From positions 1-60,990 of the forward strand of contig JAISTB010000002.1 in the NCBI GenBank assembly GCA_031272775.1: a stretch of 60,990 nt of DNA, written 5' to 3'. Source of the DNA: Fusobacteriaceae bacterium. GTDB taxonomy: Bacteria; Fusobacteriota; Fusobacteriia; Fusobacteriales; Fusobacteriaceae. Numbering within the stretch: the stretch's first letter is position 1; each line of letters opens with the position of its first letter. Under the pieces are notes generated by a model. That model did no database searches. It saw nothing but the letters and a program-made list of their open reading frames with translations, and was not told the origin of the DNA. This document shows positions 39,975 to 54,035 of this stretch, one piece after another. Both the position numbers and the translations under genes were made by a program.

Positions 39975-40606
39975 AAATCGCGATGATCAACGGCAGTTCC
40001 AAGAGTCGTTCGGGAATTTCCGACATCCTGCTGGCCTATCTGAAGGCCATGCTCGAGTCGGCGGATTCTTTGGCCGCGTCAGCTATCCAGGTAAGTAAAC
40101 TCAAAGACGGCAAGCTCAGCGCCGAAGAAACAAAGGCGATCGCCGCCGCCGATAGTATCGTCTTCGCTTTTCCGCTCTATGTGGACGGGCTCCCCGCGCC
40201 TATGCTCTCATGGCTCATGTCCATGGAGAACGCGTTTCCGGAAAAAAGGCCTCTGATCTATGCCGTGGCCAATTGCGGCTACTATGAAGGCATACAGAGC
40301 CAAACGGCCATATCGATACTCAAAAACTGGGCAGTTCGCGCCGGAGTCCCCTGGGGAGCGGCCCTGGCCGTAGGCGGAGGACCGATGTATTTCAGCGCGA
40401 AAATCGCCGCAACAGGGCCAGGAAAAGCCACTTTCGCGGGATTGGAGGCCCTCGCCCGGCATATACTTCTCCAAGAGACCGCCGACGATCGCTATACGTC
40501 CCCGAGCCTCCCGCGCTTTCTCTACAGCTTTACGGCGAACCAGCAATGGAAGCGGGCCATTCGCGCAAGGGGCCTCAAGGTCAGCGACTTGGGGAAAAAG
40601 GCTTAA
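39971..40606 (+). CDS. Flavodoxin-fold NAD(P)H reductase-like protein
   Basis: A 211-residue flavoprotein with the phosphate-binding start MKIAMINGSSKSRSGISD and FAFPLYVDGLPAPMLSWL near residue 66, typical of the NADPH-dependent FMN reductase/flavodoxin-like fold. It complements its neighbour, which lacks this N-terminal loop, and is translated by overlap with it. The C-terminus (after residue 165) is helical and basic. It is convergent with rqcH, overlapping by four bases. Confidence 0.8.
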   Translation: MKIAMINGSSKSRSGISDILLAYLKAMLESADSLAASAIQVSKLKDGKLSAEETKAIAAADSIVFAFPLYVDGLPAPMLSWLMSMENAFPEKRPLIYAVANCGYYEGIQSQTAISILKNWAVRAGVPWGAALAVGGGPMYFSAKIAATGPGKATFAGLEALARHILLQETADDRYTSPSLPRFLYSFTANQQWKRAIRARGLKVSDLGKKA

Positions 40607-42264
40607 TCGAGGGCTTTCTTTTCGACAAGGACGCCCTTTTCATGCGTATAGGTCACAAATCCGGGTTTTCCGCCCTTGGGCTTGCGGATATATTTCTTTT
40701 TCGTATAGTCCACCAAAACCCTGCCGCCGGGGGGAACCGCCGTAAACCAGGCGGCCACTTGGCAACCGGCCGCGATATCGTCTTCGGTGAAGGGGAGACC
40801 CTGCGTCTCCGGCAGGATCACATGGGCGCCGGGCACGTTTTTTCCGTGAAACCACAGGTCCTCGCGACCCGCCGTTTGCAGCGTCAGACGGTCGTTTTCC
40901 AGATTGTTCCGCCCGTAGAGAAACTTTCTGTTTTTGTAAATCACCTCGCCGTATCCCACAGCCTTCGACTTTCCGGAGGCTTTTTTGTTTTTCCGGTTGA
41001 AAACGTTTTCCTTGTCGCGCACGACGCCCTGCCGCAGGGCTTCTTCATAGATCAGCCGCAGGTTTTCAATGTCTCCCCCGCCGTCGATAAAAAAGAGCAG
41101 GCTGTCCAGCCAGTCCAGATCGGCGCGGATCTCCTCCAAACGTTTCATGTTTGCCTCAAGACCGCGTTTGGCGCGGTTATATTGCTTATAAAATTTATCT
41201 AAATTTTCCTTGGGCGTGAGTCTGATGTCGAGCGGGATGGCAATTTCTTCGTTCCGATAAAAATCCGCGGCTTTAAGATTAGCGTCTCCTTTATTGACCC
41301 GGTAGAGATTTGCCGCGAGGATGTCGCCCATTTCCCGAAAACGCTCATAATCTTGCCGCTCCGCTTTTTCCGCGTTCAGAATATCGAGAATTTTCCTGTC
41401 TTTTTTGATCTTTTTTTCGACCTGCCCGCGGAGATACTTTTTCATGACGTCATAGGCCCGCGAAAGCTGGAGGCGGGCCATATAGGCGGCGATCATGTCC
41501 TTGTAGCTCCCGAAGGTAAGTATTTCCTCGCCTGGAGCGGGCGCAAGGGGCAGCACCGTCGCCAATACAACCGTTCCCTTTCGCGTAAAAATCCTTGGAT
41601 CGGGCGGCGCGTCCAAAAAACGGCGCAAATCCTCATAACTTCCGATCTGCTCGGAGCTTCTTTTCCCTATACCTTCCAATTTTTCCCGAAGAAGGGCGGG
41701 GAGACGGTCTCCGGCCTCATTGCGCCACGCCGCGAAATCTTCGGGCGTCACGTCATAGGGTGAATTTTTCCCCGCCAGGGCGGGCTTTTCATAAAGCGCC
41801 CCGGGAAAAAGCGGGCGTCCCTTTTCTTCGTCCAGATAGCGCCGTTTCATAAGATCGATGATCTGATCGACGTTGTCCGTAAAGATAAAATTGGAACGAC
41901 CGCCCATCCATTCGAAATAAATCCGGTATTCGCGGCTTTCTCCGAGCTCGGTCAGTCGTCTGAAACGAAAGCGGTAGACGCGGTCAAGGCCCAATTGCTC
42001 GAGAGAGATAAGCTCGGCCCCGGGCAAATGCTTGCGCAGCGTGTCGGTCAAACCTCCCGAAGGATCCAGTACGGTCTCCTTTTCAGAGGCCTCGTAGAGA
42101 ACGGGAAAAGCGCCGTCGCACGAAAAAACCAGTTCCCTCCTGCCGAAAAACAGCGAGAGAGAACTGTTGGTATTCCGCGTTATTCTGTGTATCCGGGTCC
42201 CCAAGAGCGATTGTTCCAGCTCATTTCGGATTTTTCGCAGGGACAAGCCGTCAAGATAGAGCAT
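40603..42264 (-). CDS. rqcH: Ribosome quality control protein RqcH (NFACT family)
   Basis: A 553-residue NFACT protein. RqcH binds stalled 50S-peptidyl-tRNA complexes and recruits tRNA-Ala to add C-terminal alanine tails. The NFACT-N domain includes the conserved Asp94-Arg95 pair (LGLDRVYRF), a long coiled coil spans about residues 270-395, and the NFACT-R domain has DLWFHGKNVPGAHVIL near residue 467 and the basic YIRKPKGGKPG near residue 520. It is also known as FbpA-like for a fibronectin-binding label. It starts 18 bases after the MarR-FeoA stop and closes the PASTA operon. Confidence 0.92.
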   Translation of the reverse strand: MLYLDGLSLRKIRNELEQSLLGTRIHRITRNTNSSLSLFFGRRELVFSCDGAFPVLYEASEKETVLDPSGGLTDTLRKHLPGAELISLEQLGLDRVYRFRFRRLTELGESREYRIYFEWMGGRSNFIFTDNVDQIIDLMKRRYLDEEKGRPLFPGALYEKPALAGKNSPYDVTPEDFAAWRNEAGDRLPALLREKLEGIGKRSSEQIGSYEDLRRFLDAPPDPRIFTRKGTVVLATVLPLAPAPGEEILTFGSYKDMIAAYMARLQLSRAYDVMKKYLRGQVEKKIKKDRKILDILNAEKAERQDYERFREMGDILAANLYRVNKGDANLKAADFYRNEEIAIPLDIRLTPKENLDKFYKQYNRAKRGLEANMKRLEEIRADLDWLDSLLFFIDGGGDIENLRLIYEEALRQGVVRDKENVFNRKNKKASGKSKAVGYGEVIYKNRKFLYGRNNLENDRLTLQTAGREDLWFHGKNVPGAHVILPETQGLPFTEDDIAAGCQVAAWFTAVPPGGRVLVDYTKKKYIRKPKGGKPGFVTYTHEKGVLVEKKALD

Positions 42265-42282: not shown

Positions 42283-42954
42283 TTATTCCGTTTCGATACC
42301 GATCAAATTTCTGGCGTCGAGCACGTTGAGCTGCAGGACCGCGCCGTCGCCTTTTTCCAGCGTAAACATTTCCTTGTCCTTGGAGGGAAGCACCTTTAAA
42401 ATCGCGAAATTCTCGATGCCGTGTTCGGCGAAATAATTCTGGACAATGGGCGTCCCCTTGATCTCCACAACGGAAACCTTGGTCCCGGCGGGAAAATCAC
42501 TGACCGCCATGGGCTTGAAATGAGCGGTCTTGTTTCTCAAAGATTTGAGAATAATCTCAAAGACATGCTCGAAGACTTCAAGTTCCTCTTTAGGGATATT
42601 TTCGGTGATGCTGGCCATAATCATCTTGTGGTAATTGTTGTGATAGGAAAGGGCCCCGAGACCGGTCTTGGTCAGGGATACATAGACCTTCCGCCGGTCG
42701 ATGTCCGAGCGACTTCTGTCGACGTAGCCTTTCTCCGTCAACTTGGAAATCGCCACCGTCGCCGTGCCCATGGTAATCCCGAGGCGGTCGGCCAATTCGT
42801 TCATCATAACGGACTCGTTGCCGATGGCGTCAATAATATGCAATTCCGTATGGGTCAAAGACTTGATCCCCCGTTTGAGGGCCATATCCTCGGTCCGGTA
42901 AAATACTTTGTAAAAACTTTCGAGTAATTCATTGATCCGATTGATATCCACCAT
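42283..42954 (-). CDS. MarR-type regulator fused to a FeoA-like domain
   Basis: A 223-residue transcription factor. Residues 1-145 form a MarR winged helix: LTHTELHIIDAIG, recognition region ELADRLGITMGTATVAISKL and wing DRSRSDIDRRKVYVSLT. Residues 149-223 resemble a FeoA/SH3-like domain (SDFPAGTKVSVVEIKG, VLPSKDKEMFTLEKGDGAV, DARNLIGIE), as found at the end of DtxR-type metal regulators. The pairing suggests sensing of a metal or a lipid-like ligand; the target genes are unknown. The ATG shares a base with the rpe stop (TAATG), so it is coupled to rpe. Confidence 0.82.
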   Translation of the reverse strand: MVDINRINELLESFYKVFYRTEDMALKRGIKSLTHTELHIIDAIGNESVMMNELADRLGITMGTATVAISKLTEKGYVDRSRSDIDRRKVYVSLTKTGLGALSYHNNYHKMIMASITENIPKEELEVFEHVFEIILKSLRNKTAHFKPMAVSDFPAGTKVSVVEIKGTPIVQNYFAEHGIENFAILKVLPSKDKEMFTLEKGDGAVLQLNVLDARNLIGIETE

Positions 42955-43631
42955 TATCCATCACTCCCCGGGGCCGCAGCCGTTCGCTCCGCGACCTCCC
43001 GTAATTTTTTGATTCTTTCCGCGTAGTCCCCGCCAAAGATATAGGTCCCGGCCACAAAGACATTTGCTCCCGCTTTTGCGCACTGAGCGGCCTCCGTTTC
43101 GGCGATCCCGCCGTCCACTTCAATATCGATTCCCGGGGCAGCTGCCCTCAGGTCGCGGATTTTTTTCAACGTCAGCGGGAGAAAGGATTGCCCGCCAAAG
43201 CCTGGATTCACGCTCATCAAGAGGACAAGATCCACATCGGGCAGCAGGTAATCGAGGACGGAAAGGGACGTCGCCGGATTCAGAGATACTCCCGCTTTTC
43301 TCCCGTTTTTTTTGATCTCCTGAACGACTTTATGCAGATGATCCGTAGCTTCCACGTGGACGGTTATGGTATCGGCCCCCGCTTCAGCAAAGGCGCCGAT
43401 GTAACGTTCGGGCCGGACAATCATCAAATGGACGTCCAGGGGGAGGTTCGTACACGTCCGGAACATCCGGACCGCGGAAACGCCGAAAGTGATATTGGGT
43501 ACAAAGCAGCCGTCCATAATGTCCACATGGATTTCGTCGGCGCCGGCGGCGTCAAGGGCCCGAATCTCGTCGCCGAATCGCAGAATATCGGCCGCCAGTA
43601 TGGAAGGCGCGACGCGAATTTTATTTTTCAT
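42954..43631 (-). CDS. rpe: Ribulose-phosphate 3-epimerase
   Basis: A 225-residue TIM-barrel enzyme interconverting ribulose 5-phosphate and xylulose 5-phosphate in the pentose phosphate pathway. It shows APSILAADILRFGDE, the metal and acid site in HVDIMDGCFVPNITFG near residue 35, DVHLMIVRPERYI near residue 66, VNPGFGGQSFLP near residue 141 and EVDGGI near residue 175. ATG at 43631 is chosen from family alignment; its ribosome site is modest (GGTGG). The gene overlaps rsgA by 11 bases, preserving the rsgA-rpe order found in Firmicutes. Confidence 0.95.
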   Translation of the reverse strand: MKNKIRVAPSILAADILRFGDEIRALDAAGADEIHVDIMDGCFVPNITFGVSAVRMFRTCTNLPLDVHLMIVRPERYIGAFAEAGADTITVHVEATDHLHKVVQEIKKNGRKAGVSLNPATSLSVLDYLLPDVDLVLLMSVNPGFGGQSFLPLTLKKIRDLRAAAPGIDIEVDGGIAETEAAQCAKAGANVFVAGTYIFGGDYAERIKKLREVAERTAAAPGSDG

Positions 43632-44505
43632 GTTTGTTCCACCTCGTCCGGGAGAGCTTTTGAAAGACCTTCCGGTAAAATTCATAACGCATATCGGAAA
43701 TCTTTCCCGCTTCGACGAGCTTTTTGACCGCGCAGCCGGGCTCGTCCATATGCCGGCAATTGAGGAAGCGGCAGGATTGTTCGGTCCGCAGGAATTCCGG
43801 GAACAGCGAGATCAGGACATCGGAATTTTCAATATCGGGAATGTCCACGGAGGAAAATCCAGGCGTATCGATGATAAAGCCGTTGACATCAAAGGGAATC
43901 AGGCGCGTCTCTTTGGTGGTATGACGGCCGGTCAGCTTCCGGCTCGTTTCGCCGGTCTCCATATGCACATGGCTCTGGAGCACGTTGACTACGCTGGATT
44001 TCCCGACGCCGCTGGGACCGCCGAAGGCGCTGGTGGCCCCTTTGATATACTGTCGTACGTCTTCTATGCCGATATTCCAGTCTCTCGAGATATAAAATAC
44101 TTGAATTTTGAGATCTTCCAAAAATTGTAATTTTTTTTGAATTGTCTGCAATTCATTTTTGGACAAAAGATCAATTTTGTTGATCAGGATAATCGGGGAA
44201 ATCCCGTAATAAAAGCTGTTGAGCAGCAGAATGTTCAGTTTTTCAAAATCAAGATCGGGATTTTTGACCGCGAACTGGATCAGGATATAGTCGATGTTGG
44301 CCACAAGGGGTCGTCCCAAAAAGTTCCGGCGTTCTTCGATGGCGTCGATGGTCCCCTCGGGGGAAAACTCCACGATATCCCCAACAACGCAGTTATCGCG
44401 TTTTTCGCTGCGTTTCAAAATCCCCCGGAGTCGGCACTCATAAAGCCTGCCCTCCGATTGGACATAATAGAACCCCTGCACTTTGTTTGTGACAACGCCT
44501 TTAAT
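43621..44505 (-). CDS. rsgA: Ribosome small-subunit GTPase RsgA, apparent ATT start
   Basis: A 294-residue circularly permuted GTPase that checks 30S subunit maturation. OB-fold region first; G4 is LINKIDLL, G1 is GPSGVGKSS, G3 is DTPGFSS, and the C-terminal zinc knuckle has C-x4-C-x-H-x5-C (CRFLNCRH, then CAVKK). The usual start MKGxV-xxK-xxGFYYV aligns with ATT at 44505, followed by KGVVTNKVQGFYYV. GGTGATC, complementary to the 16S tail, is correctly placed for it. A GTG at 44481 would remove the first beta-strand and lacks a ribosome site. It follows the PASTA gene by 32 bases. Confidence 0.88.
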   Translation of the reverse strand: MKGVVTNKVQGFYYVQSEGRLYECRLRGILKRSEKRDNCVVGDIVEFSPEGTIDAIEERRNFLGRPLVANIDYILIQFAVKNPDLDFEKLNILLLNSFYYGISPIILINKIDLLSKNELQTIQKKLQFLEDLKIQVFYISRDWNIGIEDVRQYIKGATSAFGGPSGVGKSSVVNVLQSHVHMETGETSRKLTGRHTTKETRLIPFDVNGFIIDTPGFSSVDIPDIENSDVLISLFPEFLRTEQSCRFLNCRHMDEPGCAVKKLVEAGKISDMRYEFYRKVFQKLSRTRWNKHEK

Positions 44506-44537: not shown

Positions 44538-45353
44538 TCAATTGCCCGTGGCGTCGGGGATATCCGCGCCGATTTCGTTTACGGTCGTCGTACCGTCGGC
44601 GTCCCCGGCGTCATCGCCGAGCCGCTCCACAGGCCGCTCCAGATCGCTTTTATTGACCGTAAGGCTGATGGCCGTTCCGGCCCGCACCGTCACACCCGGC
44701 AGCACGCCGGCTTCCGTGACGACGTTATTGTATTTGTCCTTGATCTTTGTCATTGTGATCTTGCCGACCACGAGGGAGCTGTTTTGCAGGGCGGCGGTCG
44801 CCTCATCGAGCGTCAGGCCCACCAGCGTCGGCGCTTTGACTTCCGTAAAATTGGAATTTCCACTAATAAGAAAGGAGATCTTGTCGCCCCGACGCAGCAG
44901 CGTATCGGTGGCCGGGTCAGTGGAAAGCACCTCGTTTACGGCTTTATTGGTCATGGTGCTAACGACCCGCTCGACCTGGAGACCTCTCTGCAAGGCAATG
45001 GATCTGGCTTCGAGAAAATTCATGCCCACAAAATCAGGCACTTCCACGAGGGCGCTGCCTTTGCTGACCCAGACGCGGATGTTCCGGTGGATCTTGACGA
45101 CCTGTCCCGGTTCCGGTTCCTGCAAAAAAATCTCGCCGACCGGAAGCTTCGAATATTCTTCACCCACGAGCTTGACGTTGACGTTCTGACCGGCCATGGC
45201 CTTTTGCACATCGTCGTACATCAGGCCCAGAAAATCCGGCGTATAATAATAGGTCTCGTTGAAATATACCCGCTCGGCGATCTTTACGACAAAAAACAGC
45301 GTCCCGAAGACGCAGAGCCAGGCCGAAAGCGAAAGCAACAGGGATTTTTTCAC
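44538..45353 (-). CDS. Membrane-anchored PASTA-repeat protein without kinase domain
   Basis: A 271-residue protein with one membrane span (residues 3-25) and three extracytoplasmic PASTA domains (about 37-105, 106-175 and 177-245), each with the V-P-D-x-x-G or A-P-x-L-V-G-L start and Thr/Ser-rich ends. PASTA repeats bind wall precursors or fragments. The downstream genes rsgA and rpe match the Firmicute prkC locus, so this looks like the sensor part of a PrkC/StkP kinase with the cytoplasmic kinase lost. GTG at 45353 is chosen because GGAGG lies five bases upstream; an ATG at 45416 lacks a site. Confidence 0.85.
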   Translation of the reverse strand: MKKSLLLSLSAWLCVFGTLFFVVKIAERVYFNETYYYTPDFLGLMYDDVQKAMAGQNVNVKLVGEEYSKLPVGEIFLQEPEPGQVVKIHRNIRVWVSKGSALVEVPDFVGMNFLEARSIALQRGLQVERVVSTMTNKAVNEVLSTDPATDTLLRRGDKISFLISGNSNFTEVKAPTLVGLTLDEATAALQNSSLVVGKITMTKIKDKYNNVVTEAGVLPGVTVRAGTAISLTVNKSDLERPVERLGDDAGDADGTTTVNEIGADIPDATGN

Positions 45354-45463
45354 GCTGACCTCCGAAATCCCTCCGTTATCCCGCTCACGGAGGAATTCAT
45401 GTTTGATTTGTCTCATAAAAAATTTATTTTGCGAAATATCGAAATCATTATTTGATCTATCTA

Positions 45464-45618: not shown

Positions 45619-46911
45619 ATGGAACGAGCCCGCATGAAAAATCTGATGACCTGGAAGAAGGGAAAACGCAGGAACCCGCTGATTTTGTATGGTCCGGCCC
45701 ATACGGGCAAGACCCGTCTTGTGACGGACTTCGGGGAAAAACAATATGGATCAACTTTTTTATGGAATTTTTTCAACAATAAAAAATTATCAGACATTTT
45801 TAGAAAAAACCGGGACCCCGAGTCGATCATTCAAGGACTCGAAAAGCTCTCAGGCCGGGAAATTGCCGCCGAAGACACGCTTCTAATCTTCGACGAGATC
45901 GAAAACTGCCCCGAGGCTGTGAACAGTCTGGACGCCTTTGCCGAGAGCACGCCCCAGTACGATATTATCGCGACTTCCTCGCTTTTGCCGCTGGCCATCG
46001 GCGGCGAGCGCTTCAATTTTCCCGAAAACGCCCTGACGCTGAAGCTCTTTCCAATGAGTTTCAAGGAATTCCTCTGGGCGGCCGGACAGAAAAAACTCGT
46101 CGACGAGATCGAAAATTCCTGGCGCTTTCATTACCCGATGTTTGGACAACTCCATGAGACGGCCCTATCCCTGTGCCGCGCCTACATGAGCTGCGGCGGC
46201 ATGCCCGCTTGCGTGGAGGCCTGCCTTCAAAAGGAAGCGCCGGAAACCCTGAAGGCGCTGCAAAAGGATATCCTGGCGTCCTGGGAAGACGACATGGCCC
46301 GCTACGCCACACCCTACAAGACTTTCCGGACCATGGCGGTCTTTGAGAGTATGCCGGGGCAATTAAAAAAAGAAAACAAGAAATTTATGTATACGCTGCT
46401 CCAGGAGGGCGGTCGCTCCAAATCCTATGAGTTTTCCATGAACTGGCTCAAAAAAGCCGGTTTCGTCATCCAGAGCGGCAAAGTCAAAGAAGGAACGCAA
46501 CCGCTGACGGCCCACCGGGATCCGCAGTCCCTCAAACTCTACAACGCCGACGTCGGTCTCTTGACGGCCGCCGGGAACTGGGACGCCGACGCGCTCCTGG
46601 CCGACAGCCTCGAGAACGGCGAAACGAAAAAGGCCATCCTCGAGAACTACGTGGCCCAGGAACTGACCTGCAACGGCTATACGCCCTGGTATTGGGAATC
46701 GGAAGGGAAAGCGGACATCGACTTCGTGATCCAGCGCGCCGACGCCGTGATCCCCATCGAGATCCGGGCCGGAAAAAGCGCCAAGGGAAAGAGTTTCTCG
46801 GTATTCCTTAATAAATATCGTCTCAATTACGGGATCGAGATCTCCGAGCGGAATTTTTCGCTGGAGGGCAATATCCGCCATATTCCGGTATACGCGGTTT
46901 TCTGCATTTGA
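45619..46911 (+). CDS. AAA-type ATPase with DUF4143-like C-terminus
   Basis: A 430-residue STAND/AAA-like ATPase. Walker A is GPAHTGKT near residue 25 and Walker B is LLIFDEIENCP near residue 88; a sensor segment TSSLLPLAIGG follows. The C-terminal third has the DUF4143 pattern, including LKLYNADVGLL near residue 302, ENYVAQEL near residue 341 and WYWESEGKADIDFVI near residue 355, an endonuclease-like tail. Members are common in anaerobes; their role is unclear (possibly mobile or defence-associated). GGAGGG precedes the ATG. It is monocistronic with a stem at its stop. Confidence 0.85.
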   Translation: MERARMKNLMTWKKGKRRNPLILYGPAHTGKTRLVTDFGEKQYGSTFLWNFFNNKKLSDIFRKNRDPESIIQGLEKLSGREIAAEDTLLIFDEIENCPEAVNSLDAFAESTPQYDIIATSSLLPLAIGGERFNFPENALTLKLFPMSFKEFLWAAGQKKLVDEIENSWRFHYPMFGQLHETALSLCRAYMSCGGMPACVEACLQKEAPETLKALQKDILASWEDDMARYATPYKTFRTMAVFESMPGQLKKENKKFMYTLLQEGGRSKSYEFSMNWLKKAGFVIQSGKVKEGTQPLTAHRDPQSLKLYNADVGLLTAAGNWDADALLADSLENGETKKAILENYVAQELTCNGYTPWYWESEGKADIDFVIQRADAVIPIEIRAGKSAKGKSFSVFLNKYRLNYGIEISERNFSLEGNIRHIPVYAVFCI

Positions 46912-48910: not shown

Positions 48911-48937
48911 AAAATCCTTCCGGCGCGGAAGGATTTT
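48911..48937. terminator. Terminator shared by tRNA-Gln and the ftsB gene
   Basis: AAAATCCTTCC (48911-48921) and GGAAGGATTTT (48927-48937) form an 11-pair stem with a five-base loop. ATTTTT follows on the plus strand. On the minus strand it begins at the last bases of the ftsB-like stop. Confidence 0.9.
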
Positions 48938-49244
48938 ATTTTTCGGGATTTTCCACGAGTTTGTAGACAATCTCGCCTTTTTTGATCATTTGCAACTTAT
49001 CCCGGGCCAGCTTTTCCCGGTAATAGGCTTCATTGAGCCGCGAGACCTCCGTCTGGCGGGCCGCCAGTTTCTTTCGTTCCTCGCCGATCCGGGCGTTCAG
49101 CTCGTTTCTGGTCTCGGTCAGCTTCCGGATCCGGAGAATGCCCTTGTAGATTTGCGGCCATTGCAAATAGAGCGCGACCGCCACGACCGCGAAGCAGAGG
49201 GCATTTTTGATAAATTTGCCGTTGCCGGGGGGATTATTTGCCAT
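48936..49244 (-). CDS. FtsB/DivIC-family septum formation protein
   Basis: A 102-residue bitopic cell-division protein. One span (residues 14-30) is followed by a coiled coil (about 38-75) and the family end-motif YYREKLARDKLQMIKKGEIVYKL. Such proteins form the FtsQ-FtsL-FtsB scaffold that activates septal peptidoglycan synthesis by FtsW-FtsI. The same operon encodes an FtsI-type transpeptidase, which supports a division role. It starts 14 bases after the def stop. Its stop lies within the terminator stem. Confidence 0.85.
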   Translation of the reverse strand: MANNPPGNGKFIKNALCFAVVAVALYLQWPQIYKGILRIRKLTETRNELNARIGEERKKLAARQTEVSRLNEAYYREKLARDKLQMIKKGEIVYKLVENPEK

Positions 49245-49258
49245 GACGCGCTCCTGGT

Positions 49259-49759
49259 TCAGGTCTCAGAGGCAGCTTTTTTGATCTGCGAAAGCTTTTT
49301 TCTGATCATGCGTTTGGCGACCGGAGAAATCTTGTCCACAAAGAGGACGCCCTCAAGGTGGTCGTATTCATGCTGGGCGATAACGGCCCGGAAGCCTTCG
49401 AGCACCATGGACTGGGGCCGGCCTTTTTCATCAAGGAACTCCAGCCGGATTTTTCCCGGGCGCTTGACATTTTTGTAGACGCCGGGGACGCTGAGACAGC
49501 CTTCCACAAATTCCATAAGTTCTGTAGTAAGCGGTGTGATCACGGGATTAACGACCATTTTGACGACGTCTTCCTCCGTATAGCACACGAACATCCGCAG
49601 CGGAAAACCGACCTGTGGCGCCGCAAGACCCACGCCGTTTGAGGCTTTCATGGTCTCCGCCATCTCTTTCAGGATCGTTCTCATCTCCTCATTGACCTCG
49701 GGCACGTCCTTCGCCCTTGCCCGCAGGGCCTCATTGCCATATTTCAAAATCGTATACAC
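49259..49759 (-). CDS. def: Peptide deformylase
   Basis: A 166-residue metalloenzyme that removes the formyl group from nascent proteins. All three motifs are present: GVGLAAPQVG near residue 42, EGCLSVPG near residue 85 with the metal Cys, and QHEYDHLEGVLF near residue 126 with two His ligands and the catalytic Glu. GTG at 49759 is chosen because AAGGAG lies eight bases upstream and the family begins VYTILKYG; a TTG at 49777 would contain the ribosome site. Between priA and this gene there are 38 bases. Confidence 0.94.
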   Translation of the reverse strand: MYTILKYGNEALRARAKDVPEVNEEMRTILKEMAETMKASNGVGLAAPQVGFPLRMFVCYTEEDVVKMVVNPVITPLTTELMEFVEGCLSVPGVYKNVKRPGKIRLEFLDEKGRPQSMVLEGFRAVIAQHEYDHLEGVLFVDKISPVAKRMIRKKLSQIKKAASET

Positions 49760-49797
49760 GACTTCAGCTCCTTTCAATCTTCGCTCCGCGATTTCTA

Positions 49798-51792
49798 TTA
49801 TATCAGATTTACGGGGTCAATATCAACGGAAATCCGGATATTTTTTTTCGGCCCCGTTTTTTCCGTCCCCGTCTCCTCGAGTATAGCGCCCAATTTGCGC
49901 TTATAGGCCGCGATTTCTTTCTTTTCCCCCTTGATAAAGATATTGTAGCGGTAGCGGTCCTTGACCCGGTAGACCAGGGACTGCATGGGACCCAGGATCG
50001 TGACGGCGTCGTCCGCGATCCGCGTCCGGAATTCCTTCACGAAGGCCTGCAAATCTCCTTCGGAGGGGGAGGAAAGGCCGATATTGATCGTCCGGGAAAA
50101 GGGGGGGTAGGAAAGCAGTTTCCGCGTCGCCATTTCCTGCCGGTAAAATTTGTCGTAGTTTCCGTCAAGGATCGCGGTAAACGTATGGTTTTCGGGCTGA
50201 TAGGTCTGTACGACGACCTTGCCTTTGCGCTCGCCGCGCCCTGCCCGGCCCGCCACCTGGGTCACGATCTGGTAAGTCTTTTCCCCCGAACGGAAATCGG
50301 GAAAATTGAGAATCGTATCGGCGTTGATGACGCCCACCAGGGTCACGTTGGGGAAATGGAGTCCCTTGGCGACGACCTGGGTGCCGATGAGGATTTTGTA
50401 TTTGCCGGCCGCGAAATCCCCGTAGACTTCGGCGTAAAAATCCCGCTCCCTGGCTTTTTCCGAATCCACGGAGACCACGGGGACGTCAAAATATTTGCGG
50501 ATTTCCTCTTCGACGCGCTCGATGCCCTTGCCGCTGTGAACGAGGTTCGTCCCGCCGCAGACCGGACAACGACCCGTATAGGGCTTTGTCTCGCCGCAGT
50601 AGTTGCACTTGAATACGCGTCTGCCGGCGTAATAAGAGAGCTTGATGGAACAATGGGGGCATTCCTCCACGGCCCCGCAATCCGTGCACTGGATATAAGT
50701 CGAATAGCCCTTGCGGTTCAAAAACAGGATGACTTGCTCCCCGCGCCGCAGCGTGTCCCGGATCTCCGTCAGGAGTTTTTTGCTGAAATAAATATCTTTT
50801 TCCCCGCGCATATCGACGATCTCCATGGTCGGAAGCAAGGCGTCGTTGTAGCGTCTGTCGAGGGAAATGAGATTGAAGAGACCGGATTTGGCCCAGGCGT
50901 AGCTTTCCACCGAGGGCGTGGCGCTTCCGAAGACGACGGTCAAGTCTTCGAGCTGGGCCCGTCTGAGAGCCACGAGCCTCGCGTGATATCTGGGGTTCGA
51001 ATCCTGTTTATACGTCGTCTCATGCTCCTCGTCGAGGATAATGTACTTGAGGTCCCGCACCGGGGCAAAAACGGCCGATCGTACGCCCAGAACGATTCTT
51101 TTCGCGCCCGTATAGAGGGCGTACCATTCCTTCCCCCGTTCCGCCGGCGTGAGCTTGCTGTGAAGTACGGCCACGGCGTCCCCGAAGGTCTCCCGGAAGC
51201 GCGTGACCAGCTGGGGCGTCAGAGAAATTTCCGGTACGAGAAAAATGCTGCCCCGGCCTTCGTCAAAGGCGTGACGTATCACTTCAATATAGATCTCGGT
51301 TTTTCCGGATCCCGTGATCCCCCGCAGCAGATGATAGGGCTTTTCTTCTTTCAATATGGCGTCCCGGGCCGCTTCCTGTTCGGGGGTCAACGTAACGGCG
51401 CGGGGCTCGCCGGGATATTCCGGCTCGCCTTGCGCGCCTGAGGGCTTTCGTTTTCGGGTTTTTCCCTGCATGATCCTGTCGATCCGGACTTTGAGATTTT
51501 TCGGCAACACGGCCCGGATGATTCCCGGAAGGCTGCACAGATAATAGTCCGAGATCCAGCAGAGTAACGAAATATAAGCGGGCGTTAGGCGTATTTCCCC
51601 CGGAAGGGGCGCCGTTATCGGCAGGATTTTGTATTCATGATGTTCGGCGGTATCGGGGCCGATGACGAGGCCCGAGGCCGTCTTTCCCCGGAAAGGGATC
51701 TCGACCCGCTCCCCGGGCTCATAGCGGTCCTCAGGATCGGCATAAGTAAAAAGCCCGTTGGTGTTATCGGGAAATATCTTGTAGTATCTCAT
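49798..51792 (-). CDS. priA: Primosomal protein N' (replication restart helicase PriA)
   Basis: A 664-residue superfamily 2 helicase that reloads the replisome at stalled forks, slightly shorter than usual in the N-terminal region. It has Walker A GITGSGKTE near residue 156, ILDEEHETTYKQ near residue 245, eight zinc-binding cysteines in four pairs (CTDCGAVEECPHC and CNYCGETKPYTGRCPVC) near residue 375-410 and motif VI QVAGRAGRGE near residue 510. ATG at 51792 overlaps the ftsI stop by four bases. The strand opposite holds a long open frame that is only a shadow. Confidence 0.95.
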   Translation of the reverse strand: MRYYKIFPDNTNGLFTYADPEDRYEPGERVEIPFRGKTASGLVIGPDTAEHHEYKILPITAPLPGEIRLTPAYISLLCWISDYYLCSLPGIIRAVLPKNLKVRIDRIMQGKTRKRKPSGAQGEPEYPGEPRAVTLTPEQEAARDAILKEEKPYHLLRGITGSGKTEIYIEVIRHAFDEGRGSIFLVPEISLTPQLVTRFRETFGDAVAVLHSKLTPAERGKEWYALYTGAKRIVLGVRSAVFAPVRDLKYIILDEEHETTYKQDSNPRYHARLVALRRAQLEDLTVVFGSATPSVESYAWAKSGLFNLISLDRRYNDALLPTMEIVDMRGEKDIYFSKKLLTEIRDTLRRGEQVILFLNRKGYSTYIQCTDCGAVEECPHCSIKLSYYAGRRVFKCNYCGETKPYTGRCPVCGGTNLVHSGKGIERVEEEIRKYFDVPVVSVDSEKARERDFYAEVYGDFAAGKYKILIGTQVVAKGLHFPNVTLVGVINADTILNFPDFRSGEKTYQIVTQVAGRAGRGERKGKVVVQTYQPENHTFTAILDGNYDKFYRQEMATRKLLSYPPFSRTINIGLSSPSEGDLQAFVKEFRTRIADDAVTILGPMQSLVYRVKDRYRYNIFIKGEKKEIAAYKRKLGAILEETGTEKTGPKKNIRISVDIDPVNLI

Positions 51793-54035
51793 GGATTCCT
51801 CTCTTGCGCGCTGATTTCCTTCAACAGGAACGAGGATTCGGCGGGAATATCGATTTTGATCTCGTGGGTCAGGACCACTTTGACGGCCTCGACGCCGAAG
51901 AGGGCCGCTCCCGGCGCGGGAGACTGACTCTCCACAAGGCCGGTCCCCTCGATTTCCGGGGCAATGCCCGTATCAAAGAAAACATTGATGACTTCCCGGG
52001 CTGAAAGTCCCGTGAGATCCGGCATACGGTTGCCTTCAACGCGCCGGCGGTTAGGTTTAATGATGCCGTTGATCTCAGCGGTCGTTTGACCTATGCTCTT
52101 GATTTCCATGGCTTCGGCGCTTCCCGCCGGCAAAATGCCCTTGATTTTGATGATCCGCTTGCCGATTTCCGCAAAGACAGGGGCCGCTACGGCGCCGCCG
52201 TATTTTTCCTCGATCTTTTTGCCGCGGTTGGGCTTCACAAACATGACCAGAACGACGTAAGCCGGTTTATCAACCGGGAAAAAGCCCACAAAGGACGCGA
52301 GGTAATCGTCGGGGAGATAGCCTCCCTTAGGCGAGGCGATCTGCCCGGTGCCGGTTTTCCCGCCGATCCGATATCCCTTGATCTGGGCCCGGGTTCCGGT
52401 CCCTTTCTGGACAGCCTGTTCCAGCATGGATTTCATGAGTTCCGAAGTTTCGGGCTTGATGACCGTATCGACGGCCGCGGGTACGTTTCGCCGGATCACG
52501 ACGCCGTTTTCGTCCTCGATCCGCTCCACGAGGTAAGGCCGGTATCGTACGCCTCCGTTGATGACCGCCGCGAAGGCGACCGCCATCTGGATCGGCGTCA
52601 TGACGATCCCCTGTCCGAAGGAGCGGTTCACCTTCGTCAGGAGATTCCAGCTCTTCATGGGGAGATTGCGGGGGCGCAACTCATTGGGAAAATCGACGCC
52701 GGTCCGCTCATAAAAGCCGAATTTTTGCAAATAATCCTCAAAGGTCTTATTGGAAAATTTCTCTCCGACCTGGACCATGCCGGTGTTGCTGGAGCGGGTA
52801 AGGATTTCTTCCGCGGTGATGACGCCCTTGAGGGTCTTCGTGGTCTCGCGGATCGTGTGCCCGACCCGGGTCAGGGTCCCGTCGCCGATATTGAACGTAT
52901 CGCCGGGCTTGACGAGATCTTCGTTGAGCGCGGCCGACATGACGACGGATTTGAAAATGGAGCCCGGTTCGATCTGGTCCTGGAACGTCCCGTTACGCAG
53001 GGCTTTCCCGGCGCTGTAGAGCGAAACGGAGGCAAGGACCCTGCCGTCCCGGGGGTCCAGCACAAGGCCGTAGGCCGCCTCCGCCTTTGTGGCCGCGAAT
53101 TGCTTCTCGATCTCCTCGGTCAGGACGATTTGCACGTCGCTGTCTATGGTCAGGTAAATGTTCTTGCCGTTGATTTGTTTCTGCATGACGGGTTCCGTGG
53201 TGGGGATGCTCTTGCTGCGGTCCCGGACGACCTGCCGGTCCTGTCGGGCCGTCTTTTCCCGCAAATAAGCGTCATAGGCCTTTTCAATTCCGAAAATGCC
53301 GGTTTTTTCGTCTTCCGCCCCGTCCGTATAGCCCACGTAGCCCACAATATTGCGGTAGCGTTCGTTGATCCGCTCCACGGACTCCCCGAAGTAAATCTCG
53401 TTTTTCCGGAGGCCGTTTTTTTCGATCAGGTCGCTCACCGTATCCCGCTGCCCTTCCGTGAGGTTTTTTTCGATCCGTTTATATTTGCGATTGATTTTGG
53501 CGAGCTCCACGAGGGACGCGATAAATTCGTCCTTGTCGCCGCTGATGAAGGGCAGGTCAAAGATTTCGCCCAGTGCCTTGGCGATTTCGGGTTTCGTGTG
53601 GATCCGGCTCGGGTCCACGGCCGCCTCGTATGTCGTGCTGTTCCAGGCCAGAGGCCGCCCGGCGCTGTCAAAGATTTCCCCTCTGCGCCCTCTTCTCAGA
53701 CTGAAGGCGCCGCTTTGCCTGCGTATGGCCTCGCTGTAGGCGTCGCTGTTTTTGAGCTGAATATGGATCAGTCGGCAGACCGCCAGCAGGAAGAAAAAGA
53801 GGGCGATCCGCGACGACAGCAGGGCTCTCGTCCCGAAATAGCCGTATTTACGCTCTGATGGGCTCTTGTGGAACACGTAGGCGAAGTAAAGGAAGAAAAG
53901 GAGGGCGTAGATCAAGGGAAAATAGCTTTTTTTCACCAAACAAAAACAGATTATGACGACATTTGCGACGATAACCGCTAGTTTTATGGTATTTTTCAAG
54001 ATCTCTCCCCAATTGAGGGATCCTCTCTGTTCCAA
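51789..54035 (-). CDS. FtsI/PBP2-type class B penicillin-binding protein with PASTA domain
   Basis: A 748-residue transpeptidase for septal or elongation peptidoglycan. Active-site motifs are SIFK (EPGSIFKSV near residue 359), SSN (RSSNTGM near 415) and KTG (GGKTGTGQ near 561). A dimerisation domain precedes them, and one PASTA domain (from MPDLTGLSAREV near residue 670) follows. Unusually, three membrane spans appear before the catalytic part (about residues 15-35, 38-56 and 72-92), while class B enzymes normally have one. TTG at 54035 is ten bases after GGGAGG. priA follows by a four-base overlap. Confidence 0.9.
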   Translation of the reverse strand: MEQRGSLNWGEILKNTIKLAVIVANVVIICFCLVKKSYFPLIYALLFFLYFAYVFHKSPSERKYGYFGTRALLSSRIALFFFLLAVCRLIHIQLKNSDAYSEAIRRQSGAFSLRRGRRGEIFDSAGRPLAWNSTTYEAAVDPSRIHTKPEIAKALGEIFDLPFISGDKDEFIASLVELAKINRKYKRIEKNLTEGQRDTVSDLIEKNGLRKNEIYFGESVERINERYRNIVGYVGYTDGAEDEKTGIFGIEKAYDAYLREKTARQDRQVVRDRSKSIPTTEPVMQKQINGKNIYLTIDSDVQIVLTEEIEKQFAATKAEAAYGLVLDPRDGRVLASVSLYSAGKALRNGTFQDQIEPGSIFKSVVMSAALNEDLVKPGDTFNIGDGTLTRVGHTIRETTKTLKGVITAEEILTRSSNTGMVQVGEKFSNKTFEDYLQKFGFYERTGVDFPNELRPRNLPMKSWNLLTKVNRSFGQGIVMTPIQMAVAFAAVINGGVRYRPYLVERIEDENGVVIRRNVPAAVDTVIKPETSELMKSMLEQAVQKGTGTRAQIKGYRIGGKTGTGQIASPKGGYLPDDYLASFVGFFPVDKPAYVVLVMFVKPNRGKKIEEKYGGAVAAPVFAEIGKRIIKIKGILPAGSAEAMEIKSIGQTTAEINGIIKPNRRRVEGNRMPDLTGLSAREVINVFFDTGIAPEIEGTGLVESQSPAPGAALFGVEAVKVVLTHEIKIDIPAESSFLLKEISAQERNP

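Follow-up and report, generated by a model that had tools for sequence, protein, structure and literature searches.

We analysed a 60,990-nucleotide stretch of DNA from a Fusobacteriaceae bacterium (GCA_031272775.1, contig JAISTB010000002.1), which we call the window. Its minus strand carries a gene for a small membrane-anchored PASTA protein, hereafter the sensor (44538..45353; 271 aa). The reading frame extends upstream to an ATG at 45416 that has no ribosome-binding site, whereas a GTG at 45353 has a Shine-Dalgarno GGAGG five bases upstream (45359..45363, minus strand). The GTG is therefore likely to be the true start. Pfam found three PASTA domains in the product (PF03793, E = 1.7e-29) and no other domain. 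On the minus strand, the profile matches place PASTA domain 1 at 45060..45242, domain 2 at 44862..45047 and domain 3 at 44649..44840. Hydropathy analysis indicated one membrane span of the signal-anchor type at about residues 5-24 (45282..45341, minus strand), with approximately three residues (MKK) ahead of it on the cytosolic side. AlphaFold2 run on the single sequence gave a mean pLDDT of 37 and was confident only for the anchor helix (residues 3-31). The coordinates, the single span, the three PASTA domains and the few residues ahead of the span were given exactly in an earlier note on this DNA, and its claim that there is no kinase domain was borne out by the same Pfam search and by the length of the tail. 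The sensor is not a membrane kinase, and the name PrkC is unsuitable for it.

Downstream on the same strand lie rsgA, encoding the ribosome small subunit GTPase (43621..44481; TIGR00157, 4.6e-59), and rpe, encoding ribulose-phosphate 3-epimerase (42954..43685; TIGR01163, 3.9e-83), so that the sensor gene has the place upstream of both that the earlier note had assigned to it. The same note had the operon continue with a MarR-FeoA regulator and rqcH. We recovered the MarR-type regulator (42283..42954, minus strand; PF12802, 1.1e-9) and a gene of the rqcH type at the end of the conserved operon (40603..42264, minus strand), the latter from matches to NF038240 and NF041120 and from the conserved gene order. 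The FeoA label did not stand as firmly, the FeoA-like C-terminus of the regulator being a weak, sub-threshold match (0.0015; 19 bits, with the cut-off at 23). On the opposite strand upstream of the sensor are an AAA_14/DUF4143 ATPase gene (45619-46911, plus strand) and then the genes for HGPRT and KsgA; an ATPase match occupies the same spot in G052, one of the two further genomes that represent the genus. A kinase encoded upstream in another frame had been named as evidence that would count against a kinase-less sensor, and none was found when all frames upstream of the gene were checked. No match to rsmB was found anywhere in the window.

Conservation in the phylum and kinases elsewhere

The earlier note had suggested comparing the locus with other Fusobacteriota, and this comparison revealed a phylum-wide state that the note had not seen. 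Among the 98 phylum genomes compared, 95 encode the sensor, in open frames of up to 370 aa and never fused to a kinase. An operon with the order sensor-rsgA-rpe-marR-rqcH was found in 32 sampled regions, mostly with a divergent HGPRT-KsgA pair upstream. Next to the sensor gene come rsgA and rpe, apart from a few loci, some of which lie at contig ends, and then in most cases marR and rqcH. The recurrence of one operon throughout the phylum shows that the arrangement is not due to chance. Neither a kinase gene nor a PrpC-type gene was recognised upstream of the sensor in the 32 regions. The likely starts in these regions, mostly preceded by a Shine-Dalgarno sequence, leave about 3-15 residues ahead of the span in nearly all cases. 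In the open-access literature we found no publication on PASTA proteins that lack a kinase. The arrangement is thus real and conserved, and undescribed as far as that literature shows.

The best named match came from a record labelled Fusobacterium vincentii, with 42% identity and the same operon, and this record favours assigning the phylum to Fusobacteriota. Its sensor (L160:5833-6435) extends into the cytosol with an acidic tail of 39 residues and carries two PASTA domains, a number also seen in the genus represented by G016-G018. In one genome (G046, contig C36, L151) the HGPRT gene and rsgA are adjacent and leave no room for a sensor gene between them, so the sensor is not always needed. 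Another (G044) has neither sensor nor rsgA, through loss or an assembly gap, and a 0.8 Mb genome (G001) gave zero PASTA matches. The absence from G046 and the reduction to two PASTA domains are what might be expected of a functionless relic of PrkC, but we give this explanation very little credence: the sensor is retained almost throughout the phylum with residues that are invariant in the alignment, among them Pro39, Gln78, Pro80, Pro147, Leu162, Pro175 and Gly179, and with others that are specific to the phylum, namely Phe31-Asn32, where the span ends, and Trp95 of PASTA domain 1.

We then asked whether a kinase encoded elsewhere could serve the sensor, as the earlier note had allowed. A search of the source genome (2.09 Mb, 99% complete) for a separate Hanks-type kinase and a PP2C phosphatase, which the note had proposed, returned only unsuitable candidates. 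Just one Hanks kinase was clear; its gene is surrounded by phage genes for baseplate, tail, endolysin, methyltransferase and reverse transcriptase, and its product matches a kinase family of phages. In this prophage (L008:1-10396; G000:C9:36000-46395) the Ser/Thr kinase gene corresponds to phrog_2361, and the reverse transcriptase is of the type found in diversity-generating elements. The only PP2C protein comes from a cluster in which genes for a VWA protein, a kinase-like protein that scored below threshold and the PP2C_2 phosphatase stand in a row (L007:4381-7202; G000:C3:38380-41201), an arrangement that resembles TerY-type clusters. The genome gave no match to the PrpC/Stp1 family. We therefore rejected a kinase acting in trans in this genome.

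The phylum as a whole gave a similar picture. Across the 98 genomes, the family cut-off for PrpC-type phosphatases was never exceeded. Hanks kinases are patchy, exceeding the cut-off in 48 of the 98, and of the matches listed not one comes within 50 kb of a sensor gene. These results bear on a further explanation, in which the span or the short tail of the sensor relays a signal through the membrane to another protein in the cytosol, perhaps a kinase acting in trans. Other Hanks kinases and PP2C proteins are indeed encoded in part of the phylum's genomes, and the acidic tail of the F. vincentii protein also speaks for such a partner. The patchy distribution of the kinases, their distance from the sensor gene and the very short tail here and in most members nevertheless make this explanation quite improbable.

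Relation to PrkC and origin of the kinase-less form

The family model for Stk1/PrkC (NF033483) matched the sensor with E = 1.4e-25. The match was restricted to positions 334-562 of the 563 in the model, that is, to the half with the span and the PASTA repeats, and its score of 90.4 bits was below the cut-off of 450. The span and PASTA ectodomain of the sensor thus align end to end with the C-terminal half of the model. In a library of solved structures, the best relatives of the sensor were the PASTA regions of kinases. A joint alignment of proteins from the phylum, PrkC proteins from Bacillota and the rsmB-PASTA-rpe proteins described below showed that Gln78, Pro80, Lys87 and Arg90 of PASTA domain 1 are common to all three groups. 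Arg90 is kept in 30 of 31 phylum rows, 18 of 27 Bacillota PrkC rows and 9 of 10 rsmB-PASTA-rpe rows; the pair Lys87 and Arg90 occurs in 30/31 phylum alignment rows and also in most of the PrkC and rsmB-PASTA-rpe proteins. The sensor shares with PrkC, StkP and Stk1 this Lys/Arg pair and a gene position upstream of rsgA and rpe, but differs from them in having no kinase domain, no juxtamembrane segment and no adjoining PrpC gene. Because of the NF033483 match, the shared residues of PASTA domain 1 and the rsgA-rpe synteny, membership of an unrelated PASTA family, which the earlier note had named as the finding that would sever the link to PrkC, is disfavoured. Judged by its sequence, the sensor is the ectodomain and span of PrkC, at the position of prkC, without the kinase.

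The gene order prpC-prkC-rsgA-rpe that the earlier note had ascribed to Firmicutes was observed in the sampled Bacillota, with a full kinase at the syntenic site. A scan of genome contigs with Thermotoga RsgA returned no Thermotoga; besides some distant loci it gave three from Lachnospiraceae and Eubacterium that were useful as controls. These named loci have the order rsmB-rlmN-prpC-prkC-rsgA-rpe and a kinase of 779-781 aa. Of 199 Bacillota genomes, 192 had a match to the sensor, and among the matches listed the best frame was at least 551 aa long in all but two. Both short frames were rejected as kinase-less cases, one being cut by an N-run (G177) and the other broken (G197). The Bacillota loci that were fetched encode a full kinase, mostly beside a PrpC or PBP-like gene and rsgA or rpe. 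The gene directly upstream of prkC matches a PBP at seven of these loci (L096, L098, L104, L127, L131, L135 and L143); this identity was checked with Pfam for one locus of the same gene order (L124).

The rpe locus also harbours genes for kinase-less PASTA proteins in lineages outside the Gram-positives. In one of these, entered through two contigs met by chance in the scan, a kinase-less one-span PASTA protein is present in 12 of 12 sampled genomes, and in both loci read its gene is flanked by rsmB and rpe. A match was also obtained in 18 of 99 genomes of a Desulfobacterota-like group, whose source contig bears the title Syntrophobacterales; about 10 of the 18 show the rsmB-PASTA-rpe arrangement or most of it. 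The lineages with rsmB-PASTA-rpe proteins are presumably two-membrane bacteria. Like the sensor, these proteins (L088, L091, L106-L108, L110-L112 and L114) have one signal-anchor span, PASTA repeats, no kinase and rpe beside them. Unlike at the sensor locus, there is no rsgA between the PASTA gene and rpe, and rsmB, which is missing upstream of the sensor, is directly upstream in most. Five of these loci (L106-L108, L110 and L111) encode proteins of about 237 to 326 aa, and some members have an extra C-terminal extension past the PASTA repeats that the sensor does not have.

An unrooted tree built from the span and the PASTA repeats grouped the phylum proteins on a branch with support 92 and the rsmB-PASTA-rpe proteins on a separate one with support 96. 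A single PrkC clade was neither required nor rejected (p-AU 0.67), and the three groups form a star that carries no polarity. Loss and gain of the kinase are both possible because the tree is unrooted. A single event is enough to account for the phylum, in which no sampled member has regained a kinase on its sensor.

In a different history, possible if doubtful, the ancestral state is a one-span PASTA protein without a kinase, encoded upstream of rpe, and PrkC arose in the Bacillota lineage by fusion of a kinase gene, accompanied by its phosphatase, to that protein; the phylum studied here would then have lost nothing. The kinase-less proteins at rpe in the two lineages just described are consistent with this history, as is the fact that Bacillota prkC sits in the same rsmB-to-rpe neighbourhood; Thermotoga maritima, moreover, gave a PASTA match and no Pkinase match. 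The star-like tree does not single it out, however, and two independent losses fit the data equally well. PASTA kinases are also present in Actinobacteria, which favours an old kinase. It seems to us rather unlikely that kinase-less PASTA rods beside rpe are an old and widespread component of the bacterial envelope from which the Gram-positive PASTA kinase derived by gaining its kinase domain. If they were, the ectodomain would have served a purpose of its own in the periplasm before it was recruited as the sensor of a kinase. The kinase-less sensor of a whole phylum bears on how PrkC arose.

Proposed function of the sensor

The reading we prefer, with a probability of roughly 0.6, is that the sensor is a periplasmic PASTA rod, anchored in the inner membrane, that acts on septal wall enzymes, its kinase having been lost once or never having been present. 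The signal-anchor helix would hold the protein in the inner membrane with the PASTA rod in the periplasm, where the rod may bind peptidoglycan or lipid II as putative ligands. It could then recruit or regulate a septal synthase or hydrolase, and Phe31-Asn32 and Trp95 may mark where a partner binds. The absence of kinase and phosphatase from the locus throughout the phylum would reflect a single loss before the radiation or an original lack. In this genome, the few residues ahead of the span leave no space for an output domain in the cytosol, and the periplasm is the likely place of action. In pneumococcus, StkP directs the hydrolase LytB, and PBP2x relies on the StkP extracellular domain for its localisation (PMC12077195); the role proposed for the sensor would correspond to the kinase-independent share of the work of the StkP ectodomain. 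Conservation of the sensor across the phylum and of similar proteins in some unrelated bacteria suggests that it does useful work in the envelope without a kinase. PASTA ectodomains have been studied almost only as kinase sensors, and the share of their effect that needs phosphorylation is debated. A phylum that keeps the ectodomain in the place of the kinase is a natural experiment on kinase-independent function.

One candidate for a periplasmic partner is a class B PBP encoded in the window (51789..54035, minus strand; Transpeptidase 3.2e-67, PASTA 1.5e-6). It is a wall protein, and the only other protein with PASTA in the genome; it has a transpeptidase domain, which the sensor does not, and a single C-terminal PASTA domain. 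Its gene is 6 kb from that of the sensor, a distance that is weak evidence of partnership. The PBP gene also belongs to a cluster near the sensor operon (48936-54035, minus strand) with genes for a DivIC-like protein, def and priA.

RsgA is unlikely to be a direct partner of the sensor, as only about three residues of the sensor are cytosolic here. In Bacillus subtilis, PrkC phosphorylates CpgA (RsgA) at Thr166, and CpgA works without this phosphorylation (PMC6449344), so the operon can be kept for other reasons. The RsgA site that matches Thr166 is a threonine in 7 of 43 phylum sequences and in 0 of 11 sampled Bacillota, and is thus uninformative.

A tail of three residues offers neither a folded cytosolic output domain nor a docking site, and by this reading of the sequence it argues against direct signalling to the cytosol in this genome. 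Some members of the family could have a cytosolic partner, given the longer tail and two PASTA domains of the F. vincentii protein. The F. vincentii record is filed as a plasmid, yet at 2.1 Mb and with the conserved operon it looks like a chromosome.
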